Source of the DNA: Haloprofundus halophilus
GTDB taxonomy: Archaea; Halobacteriota; Halobacteria; Halobacteriales; Haloferacaceae
Length of the DNA stretch: 64,000 nt
Direction of reading: 5' to 3'
Assembly: GCF_003439925.1 (NCBI RefSeq)
Contig: NZ_QQRR01000001.1
Coordinates: 186,001 to 250,000 of the forward strand
In this document: in pieces, positions 41,182-61,565 of the stretch
Layout: each line of letters begins with the position of its first letter
Position numbering within the stretch: position 1 is the stretch's first letter
Position numbers and translations under genes: made by a program
The notes under the pieces: model-generated
Database searches by the model: none
The model's input: the letters and a program-made list of their open reading frames with translations, nothing else
What the model was told of the DNA's origin: nothing

Positions 41182-41195
41182 AAAATCCGGATTTT
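41182..41195. terminator. Perfect 14-bp palindrome between convergent genes
   Basis: AAAATCCGGATTTT is a perfect palindrome with A- and T-runs on either side, placed between the convergent ends of the methyltransferase (41144) and DUF368 (41195) genes. It could serve as a bidirectional terminator. Confidence 0.45.
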
Positions 41196-42178
41196 CAGTC
41201 GAGGTCGATGCCGGCGACCCGGTCGACGACGACGACCAGTCCACCGCCGACGAGCGCCGCGACGGCGAACGCGACGAGGACGTCCGTCGTCCACGACCCG
41301 CCGTGTTCGGCGAGGCTCGTCGACAGTTGCGAGATGGGTGCGCGGAGCGCGCCGAAGATGAGCGCGATGAGGAACGCGAACGTCGCCTCGCGGTGGTGTT
41401 CGAGCGCCCAGTCGACGGCGTGGGCGACGGTGAACAGGCCGATGAGTGCGCCCGAACAGAACGTGACGATGGTGACGAACGGACCGGCCAGCGCGTCGAG
41501 GGTGCCGCCATCGAGGAGGCCGAACACGCCGTCCCGGAACGTCGAGAGCGTGTCGGTCATGTAGAAGTACTGCCCGAGGATGAGCAGCAGCAGCGACCCC
41601 GAGACGCCGGGGAGAATCATCGCGCTGATGGCGACGGCTCCGGCGACGAACGTCACGACGGGGCTGTGTCCGAGCGCCGACTGCGCCTCGCCGGAGACGA
41701 CGAACGCGAGGGCGAAGCCGGCGACGGAGGCCGCGATTCGGCCGGGCGTGTCGACCGACACCTCCGTGACGAGCACGAGCGCCGACGCCGCGATGAGACC
41801 GAAGAAGAACCCGAACGTCGGGGCCGGAACGGTCTCGACGGCGACTTCGACGAGACCCGTGATAGTGACGATGGCCGTCATGATACCAAAGCCGAGCGTC
41901 ACGAGAAACGCGGCGTCCATCTCCCGCAGCGAGGCGAACGCGTCGCTGCTGTCGCCGGTGACGCCGCGGAGCACGCGGAGTACGTTGTCGACGTCGATGG
42001 CCGTCACCGCGTCGATGAGGCGCTTGTAGATGCCGGTGATGAGCGCGATGGTGCCGCCGGAGACGCCGGGCACCGCGTCGGCGGCACCCATACAGACGCC
42101 TCTGAGGTAGATGCCGAGCCACCCGCGTAGGCCTCCCGACACCGTGTTCACGTCCGAAACCGTCTCTCCGTCGGCCAT
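41195..42178 (-). CDS. DUF368 (PopT-type) polyprenyl-phosphate transporter
   Basis: Polytopic membrane protein of 327 residues in the DUF368 family. The diagnostic N-terminal block RGVCMGAADAVPGVSGGTIA is repeated in degenerate form as ISAMILPGVSGSLLLLILG in the second half, an internal inverted-repeat-like duplication. About eight or nine membrane helices are visible. Bacterial DUF368 (PopT) proteins are reported to return undecaprenyl phosphate from the outer to the inner face. The gene starts 4 bases after the end of aglB, so both are almost surely co-transcribed. I infer that it recycles dolichyl phosphate released by AglB. Confidence 0.88.
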   Translation of the reverse strand: MADGETVSDVNTVSGGLRGWLGIYLRGVCMGAADAVPGVSGGTIALITGIYKRLIDAVTAIDVDNVLRVLRGVTGDSSDAFASLREMDAAFLVTLGFGIMTAIVTITGLVEVAVETVPAPTFGFFFGLIAASALVLVTEVSVDTPGRIAASVAGFALAFVVSGEAQSALGHSPVVTFVAGAVAISAMILPGVSGSLLLLILGQYFYMTDTLSTFRDGVFGLLDGGTLDALAGPFVTIVTFCSGALIGLFTVAHAVDWALEHHREATFAFLIALIFGALRAPISQLSTSLAEHGGSWTTDVLVAFAVAALVGGGLVVVVDRVAGIDLD

Positions 42179-42182
42179 CGAG

Positions 42183-60573: not shown

Positions 60574-60582
60574 AGCGTTTTT
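60574..60582 (+). promoter_or_regulatory. TATA element of aglJ
   Basis: GTTTTTATG about 27-35 bases before the aglJ ATG at 60609, giving a leader of a few bases. Confidence 0.55.
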
Positions 60583-60608
60583 ATGCGACCCTCACACAGG
60601 TCACGCCA

Positions 60609-61565
60609 ATGGACCGCGCCGACGTCTGTGTGCTCCTCCCCACGTACGACGAGGCCGAGACTATCGGCGAAGTCGTCGACGGCTACCGCGAGCAGGGCTT
60701 CTCCGACGTCCTCGTCATCGACGGCCGCTCCACGGACGGCACGCGCGACATCGCCCGACAGCACGGCGCACGCGTCGAGACCCAGTCCGGGACCGGGAAG
60801 GGACAGGCCATCCGCGAGGCGATGGAGTACATCGACGCGCCGTACGTGCTGATGGCCGACGGCGACGGAACGAACCCGCCGAACGACGCCGCGGCGATGC
60901 TCGAACCGCTCGACGACGGCTACGAACACGTCGTCGGCAACCGCTTCGCCGACATGCGTCCCGGAGCGATGACGGGGCTGAACAAACTCGGCAACCGCAT
61001 CGTCAACCGGGCGTTCGCGTACATCCACGGCGAGAACTTCGCGGACATCCTCAGCGGCTACCGCGCGTTCACCCGCGAGTCGTTCGAGCGACTCGACCTC
61101 ACCTCCGACGGGTTCGGTATCGAGACCGAGATGTCCGTCGAGTGCGCGAAGCGGAACGTTCCGACGGCCGTCGTCCCGGTCACCTACCACCCCCGTCCGG
61201 ACGGGTCGGACACGAACCTCCGCCCGTTCCGCGACGGCAGCATCATCTTCCTCGAACTGTACCGCCGCGCGAAGACGAACAACCCGCTGTTCTACTTCGG
61301 CAGCGTCGGGGTTCTCTCGACGTTGACGGGACTGCTGTTGACGCTCTACGTCGCCTACGAGTGGTTCGTCCCGCCCCGCGTCTCGCACGAGGTCATCGCC
61401 GTCAGCGCGGCCGCGGGTATCCTCTTCGGCGTCCAACTGCTCATCTTCGGCGTGCTGGCGGACATGATTCTCACGTTCCACCGCGAGCAGCTCCGAAAAA
61501 TCGAGGAACTCGACGAGCGAACGGACGCCTCGGCTCCGAAACGGAAACCGAGACAGAAGCGATAA
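60609..61565 (+). CDS. aglJ: AglJ-like dolichyl-phosphate glycosyltransferase
   Basis: GT2 enzyme of 318 residues. In Haloferax volcanii AglJ adds the first hexose of the N-linked glycan to dolichol phosphate. VCVLLPTYDEAETIGEVVDGY, VIDGRSTDGTRDIA, VLMADGDGTNPPND (D-x-D) and LSGYRAFTRESFERLDL are the DPM1/AglJ-type blocks. Two C-terminal membrane helices (about 229-250 and 257-284) follow, with a basic tail. Assignment as AglJ rests on the two helices, the block pattern and closeness to aglB; a dolichyl-phosphate mannosyltransferase is the alternative. Confidence 0.85.
   Translation: MDRADVCVLLPTYDEAETIGEVVDGYREQGFSDVLVIDGRSTDGTRDIARQHGARVETQSGTGKGQAIREAMEYIDAPYVLMADGDGTNPPNDAAAMLEPLDDGYEHVVGNRFADMRPGAMTGLNKLGNRIVNRAFAYIHGENFADILSGYRAFTRESFERLDLTSDGFGIETEMSVECAKRNVPTAVVPVTYHPRPDGSDTNLRPFRDGSIIFLELYRRAKTNNPLFYFGSVGVLSTLTGLLLTLYVAYEWFVPPRVSHEVIAVSAAAGILFGVQLLIFGVLADMILTFHREQLRKIEELDERTDASAPKRKPRQKR

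Follow-up and report, generated by a model that had tools for sequence, protein, structure and literature searches.

Why should a haloarchaeal N-glycosylation locus devote half of its genes to proteins of the alkaline phosphatase (AP) superfamily? The question arises from a 64,000-nucleotide window of the 3.47-Mb genome of Haloprofundus halophilus, in which a stretch of approximately 20 kb (41195-61565) runs from a DUF368 gene to aglJ and encodes seven AP-superfamily proteins among its 14 genes. Haloarchaeal sulfated N-glycans were the first prokaryotic N-glycans known. We consider it likely that the region is a horizontally exchanged cassette for the synthesis of a sulfated, dolichol-linked N-glycan, with the AP proteins acting as sugar-specific sulfotransferases.

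Gene content, linkage to aglB and probable exchange of the cassette

The 14 genes are as follows.

41195..42178, minus strand: DUF368 membrane protein, adjoining aglB
42183..45470, minus strand: aglB, oligosaccharyltransferase (TIGR04154, 931 bits against a cut-off of 450)
45528..46991, minus strand: MOP/Wzx-type flippase
46991..48550, minus strand: AP1, PF01663-type, Thr nucleophile, two-metal site residues
48605..50236, minus strand: AP2, PF01663-type, Thr nucleophile
50306..51790, minus strand: AP3, PF00884-type, sulfatase-like, with Thr53 as nucleophile at the fGly Cys position; predicted sulfotransferase, Agl31-like
51934..52941, plus strand: GT4a, family 4 glycosyltransferase
52966..54510, plus strand: AP4, PF01663-type
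54582..55940, plus strand: AP5, PF00884-type, sulfatase-like; predicted sulfotransferase
55956..56873, minus strand: AP6, 305 aa, no Pfam family; of the family of Agl30/VNG1056C and VNG1063H; predicted sulfotransferase
56870..58264, minus strand: AP7, PF00884-type, sulfatase-like; predicted sulfotransferase
58261..59343, minus strand: GT4b, family 4 glycosyltransferase
59358..60500, minus strand: GT2, membrane-anchored family 2 glycosyltransferase
60609..61565, plus strand: aglJ, first-sugar glycosyltransferase (TIGR04182, 450 bits against a cut-off of 325)

An earlier note, made from the sequence alone, had listed these 14 genes with seven AP members and had described overlaps of 1-4 bases between neighbors. 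The gene list is confirmed, and the overlaps were found at three junctions, namely flippase/AP1 (1 bp), AP6/AP7 (4 bp), and AP7/GT4b (4 bp). The clustering stands out within the organism's own genome: three of its five PF00884 genes (P ~2e-6) and three of its approximately eight PF01663 genes (P ~1e-5) lie inside these 20 kb.

To place the cassette in a wider context, the 40 kb around aglB in 70 haloarchaeal genomes (~58 genera), together with 80 named loci, were searched with profiles grown from the cassette proteins. Measured against genome-wide counts in the 70 genomes, 68 sulfatase-like genes occur near aglB versus 5.0 expected, an approximately 14-fold excess; without Haloprofundus, the figures are 57 observed and 4.65 expected. 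At least one AP gene is found near aglB in 45 of the 70 genomes, most of them 4-12 kb from aglB. The earlier note had proposed a surface-glycan modification locus and had named this comparison of aglB neighborhoods as a means of checking it. The linkage with aglB holds in relatives, and the proposal is supported.

Synteny of the exact cassette extends to all five Haloprofundus genomes. One genome of another family (G023) carries it in the same order, minus AP5 and AP6; its AP and glycosyltransferase proteins are 58-73% identical to those of the cassette (most 66-73%), and its AglB and DUF368 proteins 50% and 48%. A partial copy is present in Haloferax mucosum, with fragments in Halolamina, Halorussus, and Halobium. 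Horizontal exchange of the cassette between fixed flanks best accounts for this pattern of synteny and identity, and would resemble the mode of variation of bacterial O-antigen loci. The 49-kb plasmid unnamed4 of Haloprofundus halobius (L254) bears a second surface-glycan cluster, composed of a flippase, a GT2, AP-fold genes, GlmS, and nucleotide-sugar genes, which suggests that such cassettes are also plasmid-borne and mobile.

The fixed flanks would be the DUF368-aglB pair on one side and aglJ on the other. AglJ and the three other glycosyltransferases would build a dolichyl phosphate-linked oligosaccharide in the cytoplasm, where soluble AP-fold proteins would transfer sulfate to individual sugars by means of a Thr/Ser nucleophile and a metal site. 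The flippase would then export the glycan, and AglB would attach it to the S-layer glycoprotein; the order of these steps is one that we infer. DUF368/PopT proteins are polyprenyl-phosphate flippases, and the DUF368 protein of this locus probably recycles dolichyl phosphate. Its gene directly adjoins aglB on the same strand at 43 of the 70 and 59 of the 80 loci, and this adjacency, taken with the role of PopT, suggests that dolichyl-phosphate recycling is coupled to AglB.

Folds, active sites and C-termini of the AP proteins

Pfam assigns AP1, AP2, and AP4 to PF01663 and AP3, AP5, and AP7 to PF00884. AP6 matched neither a Pfam family nor, by sequence, any protein in the PDB. Its AF2 model nevertheless adopts an AP fold (mean pLDDT 90.6, pTM 0.89) closest to the phosphoethanolamine transferases EptA/MCR-1 and then to carbohydrate sulfatases, with modest TM scores; the closest folds to the AP4 model are phosphonoacetate hydrolase and NPP1. 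None of the seven AP proteins contains a TM-like segment, and Pfam assigns none of them a P-loop sulfotransferase domain (PF00685/PF13469). Searches of phages for AP6 returned nothing.

Alignment of 124 sulfatase-like relatives with the cassette proteins reveals conservation of the metal ligands Asp13, Asp301, and His302, and also of His187 and His314. At the fGly position, the 123 aglB-linked sulfatase-like proteins possess Thr (89) or Ser (34) and never Cys, and the Arg of the C/S-x-P-x-R fGly motif is absent throughout. Given a nucleophile that is always Thr or Ser, the AP3/AP5/AP7-like proteins are not fGly sulfatases, an identity that can be excluded for the whole aglB-linked set. Relatives of AP6 conserve D59, S/T89, D245, H246, and H258; PF01663 relatives conserve D9, T48, D202/H206, and D243/H244, and AP1, AP2, and AP4 each retain a Thr nucleophile together with the full NPP-type two-metal ligand set. 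Judged by these residues, the aglB-linked AP proteins appear to be intact enzymes, but not fGly sulfatases.

What, then, might such enzymes do? The earlier note knew of no described archaeal N-glycosylation locus with a comparable series of AP genes, which proved to be mistaken: the aglB cluster of Halobacterium salinarum encodes three AP-fold proteins, VNG1056C, VNG1057C, and VNG1063H (PMC11980604). VNG1056C (Agl30) and VNG1057C (Agl31), reported in 2025 in a paper that does not name the sulfate donor, are N-glycan sulfotransferases whose targets are the third and fourth sugars; the doubly sulfated glycan falls 50- to 250-fold when either gene is deleted, and the host glycan becomes sulfated when either protein is expressed in Hfx. 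volcanii (PMC11980604). A sulfation phenotype was not seen for VNG1063H (PMC11980604), and membership in an aglB cluster is therefore no guarantee of sulfotransferase function. InterPro assigns VNG1057C to the arylsulfatase family, and none of the three AP proteins described in that cluster is a PF01663 protein (PMC11980604).

The H. salinarum proteins were compared through peptides derived from the primers in PMC11980604, not through full protein sequences. For VNG1056C, the peptide ITDRTV matches the AP6 family exactly at 0.56 of the length, and DFGHLDM resembles the DFGQLDM of that family at 0.50; for VNG1063H, VHYFQPH is an exact match at 0.59. These peptides fit the AP6-family motifs in order and position, and the C-termini of the two proteins, given below, match the family as well. 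On this basis AP6 is of the Agl30/VNG1063H kind, and both H. salinarum proteins fall within its family. The VNG1057C peptides are too short to discriminate among AP groups; the protein fits the AP3/AP5/AP7 group, an assignment that follows the InterPro result of the paper. We accordingly predict that AP3, AP5, AP6, and AP7 are sulfotransferases of the same kinds as Agl31 and Agl30. AP1, AP2, and AP4 are probably sulfotransferases as well, but could instead transfer or remove a phospho group, and we know of no precedent for sulfate transfer by a PF01663-type enzyme.

A further feature is common to all seven cassette proteins, namely a C-terminal LxxLGY, followed by L/I/M and E/D in six of them and by L alone in AP6. 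The tails are encoded as follows.

46994..47029, minus strand: AP1 tail, ending RLRELGYLE
48608..48643, minus strand: AP2 tail, ending RLADLGYLE
50309..50344, minus strand: AP3 tail, ending NLRELGYLE
54472..54507, plus strand: AP4 tail, ending TLRDLGYLD (model pLDDT ~50-63)
55902..55937, plus strand: AP5 tail, ending RLTNLGYID
55959..55994, minus strand: AP6 tail, ending KLGALGYL (pLDDT ~53-56, against the model mean of 90.6)
56873..56908, minus strand: AP7 tail, ending HLRDLGYME

The strict pattern recurs in 255 of 262 complete aglB-linked AP proteins, with three more near-matches, and a single consensus, (D/E)EV(E)(E)RL(R/E)DLGY(L), preceded by an acidic, low-complexity linker, serves all three AP families. 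The primer-derived C-termini of the H. salinarum proteins are HLEDLGYL (Agl30), LEELGYT (Agl31), and KELGYIE (VNG1063H). Since pLDDT drops at the tail in both of the otherwise good AF2 models, those of AP4 and AP6, the tail is conserved but apparently lies outside the folded core, and a place within the core is disfavored. Nor is it a general feature of the AP superfamily, to judge from a small sample of seven bacterial plasmid-borne relatives, none of which carries it; it is also absent from one Halopiger AP protein, AlkP(a), and from one Haloprofundus plasmid sulfatase. C-terminally tagged Agl30 and Agl31 are still functional in Hfx. volcanii (PMC11980604), which indicates that a free C-terminus is not essential to whatever role the tail has.

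Outside the AP proteins, the tail pattern matches nine of 7,625 other open reading frames of at least 200 aa near aglB. Two of the nine belong to sulfate activation, one being an APS kinase (G020) and the other a CysD-like PF01507 protein (G092); four contain a small ribbon-helix-helix protein inside longer open frames. Just past aglJ (62010-62219, plus strand), the window itself encodes one of these four, a 69-aa ribbon-helix-helix protein that ends QLTDLGYLK and has similar proteins near aglB in three other genomes (G041, G057, and G031). This protein is possibly a regulator, or its tail a matter of chance.

Three other readings of the AP proteins were weighed against sulfate transfer by all seven. 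The first is a variant of it, credible although we favor it less, in which AP3, AP5, AP6, and AP7 are sulfotransferases and AP1, AP2, and AP4 either make another (phospho) substituent or cleave spent nucleotide (AMP/PAP). AP1, AP2, and AP4 do stand apart as a family of their own, with a complete NPP-type bimetal site, NPP1 is a close fold match to the AP4 model, and the three AP proteins described from the H. salinarum cluster include no PF01663 member; yet the tail is as frequent in proteins of this type (56 of 59) as in the other AP types, and their genes occupy the same cassettes whether or not PF00884 genes accompany them. The second, which we regard as improbable, is that the AP proteins hydrolyze their substrates, as sulfatases or phosphodiesterases would, and in this way trim glycans or nucleotide intermediates or exert quality control. 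It accords with the Pfam names and with the NPP-like two-metal site, and is most plausible for AP1, AP2, and AP4, but the fGly motif is found in no aglB-linked sulfatase-like protein and loss of Agl30 or Agl31 removes sulfate instead of adding it. Less probable still is transfer of phosphoglycerol, phosphoethanolamine, or similar phospho-substituents to the glycan in the manner of LtaS, EptA, and MCR: the AP6 model is closest to EptA/MCR-1, and such transferases, like NPPs, typically use Thr or Ser as nucleophile, but LtaS, EptA, and MCR are membrane proteins active outside the cytoplasmic membrane, the seven AP proteins lack TM-like segments, and the AP6 family includes the sulfotransferase Agl30. 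The action on the cytoplasmic side that the earlier note had envisaged is supported, and its suggestion of phospho-substituent transfer or removal, or of quality control, is not; the chemistry of AP1, AP2, and AP4 apart, the positive evidence favors sulfate transfer.

Sulfate activation and the candidate donor

If the AP proteins are sulfotransferases, they need a donor. Full-length APS kinase is encoded by seven of 145 haloarchaeal genomes and absent from the other 138, ATP sulfurylase (PF01747) occurs in three, and P-loop sulfotransferases (PF13469) occur in five, all of which have APS kinase; CysD and CysN above cut-off were found in none of the 145. APS kinase, ATP sulfurylase, PF13469 proteins, and CysD/CysN above cut-off were not found in the H. 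halophilus genome, and the presumed Halobacterium genus (g21, inferred from an S-layer peptide match; the nearest genome, G018, has an 83% identical peptide) has none of the classical sulfate-activation or P-loop genes. With 138 genomes lacking APS kinase and ATP sulfurylase in only three, it is unlikely that the donor is classical PAPS, as made by the known enzymes. A literature search for the haloarchaeal sulfate donor found nothing useful.

A CysD-like protein is present in 143 of the 145 genomes at full length and 73-84% identity, tail included, the tail having been read in six copies and deduced for the other genomes from alignments extending through the final residue. It conserves a GGKDS motif and RxDExxxR. 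Five of the six copies read contain no cysteine and the sixth contains one; the protein is therefore not an APS/PAPS reductase. Its C-terminus and that of bacterial CysD can be aligned (ERAGRAQDKEDLMERLRDLGYM versus ERSGRAQDKEDGGGLEELRKDGYM), and the tail may be a long-standing trait of CysD that bears no more than a resemblance to the AP tail. The single match in phages is annotated as a bacterial CysD. CysD normally requires CysN.

Several neighborhoods bring sulfate activation and glycan genes together. The aglB locus of G020 (L151, 1826-19748; ~20 kb) encodes an ATP sulfurylase, an APS kinase that ends NLGYL, two P-loop sulfotransferases, and an AP-fold protein that ends DLGYL. G020 thus belongs to the three genomes with ATP sulfurylase; it also belongs to the two of 145 without a full-length CysD-like copy, and has no CysD-like match at all. 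A glycan cluster on Halopiger plasmid pHALXA01 (L259:3355-12374) encodes AlkP, a PiT-type transporter, the CysD-like protein, GT4, sulfatase, GT4, and AlkP, with the tail on the sulfatase and on one AlkP. The CysD-like gene adjoins aglM, aglF, and a flippase gene on Natrinema pNATPE01 and lies 13 kb from aglB in G092. As a separate observation, the PiT gene of the Halopiger plasmid may import sulfate rather than phosphate. H. halophilus has two adjacent CysD-like genes (G000:C1, ~759955-761758), one full length with 78% identity and the other with weak CysD matches, and a second copy, 63% identical, is present in a congener (G099).

APS made by the CysD-like protein is probably the donor, a plausible and economical guess. 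Taken together, these observations lead us to a tentative and more doubtful scheme in which haloarchaea sulfate their glycans without PAPS: a near-universal, cysteine-free, stand-alone CysD-like enzyme would make APS, AP-fold sulfotransferases of the PF00884, AP6, and PF01663 types would use it directly, and the LxxLGY tail would mark the components of the system. The shared tail could act as a donor lid or a docking peptide. Both the occurrence of one tail on AP proteins, the CysD-like protein, and an APS kinase, and the lack of classical PAPS genes in most of the genomes, look new.

The enzyme type has been known since 2025 from Halobacterium and is here shown to be common across haloarchaea, AP-fold, non-fGly proteins being common aglB-linked modifiers throughout the class. 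Many haloarchaeal annotations of 'sulfatase' or 'alkaline phosphatase family' therefore probably denote transferases, not hydrolases. With classical ATP sulfurylase, APS kinase, and P-loop sulfotransferases missing from most haloarchaeal genomes, the donor question becomes a testable one, for which a single conserved gene is nominated.

Comparison with known systems

The closest likeness is to the H. salinarum proteins. Agl30/VNG1056C and VNG1063H share with AP6 an AP fold without a Pfam/InterPro family, linkage to aglB, an LxxLGY C-terminus, and matching primer peptides, although Agl30 is predicted to have a TM segment, in a hydrophobic N-terminal stretch that AP6 lacks. Agl31/VNG1057C, compared by character and not by full sequence, resembles AP3, AP5, and AP7 in being a soluble, aglB-linked, sulfatase-like AP protein with an LGY-type end; the H. 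halophilus cassette has three such proteins.

The fGly arylsulfatases and choline sulfatases of PF00884 possess the fold and metal ligands of AP3, AP5, and AP7, but the latter differ in their Thr/Ser nucleophile and the lack of a C/S-x-P-x-R motif, and the bacterial sulfatases sampled have no tail. Likewise, AP1, AP2, and AP4 have fold and active-site residues in common with phosphonoacetate hydrolase and the NPP family of PF01663, and differ in being cytoplasmic, glycan-linked, and furnished with a long acidic linker and tail.

By analogy only, the NodPQ-NodH system of rhizobial Nod-factor sulfation also has a CysD-type enzyme that feeds a dedicated glycan sulfotransferase. NodH, however, is a P-loop enzyme that uses PAPS, and CysN and APS kinase, which are rare or absent in haloarchaea, come from NodQ. 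Finally, the agl cluster of Haloferax volcanii, which directs the high-salt pentasaccharide, is similarly centered on aglB and similarly provides AglJ, a flippase function, and glycosyltransferases, but its pentasaccharide is not sulfated; in the separate low-salt pathway of that organism, Agl7 contributes to sulfation (PMC3871713).
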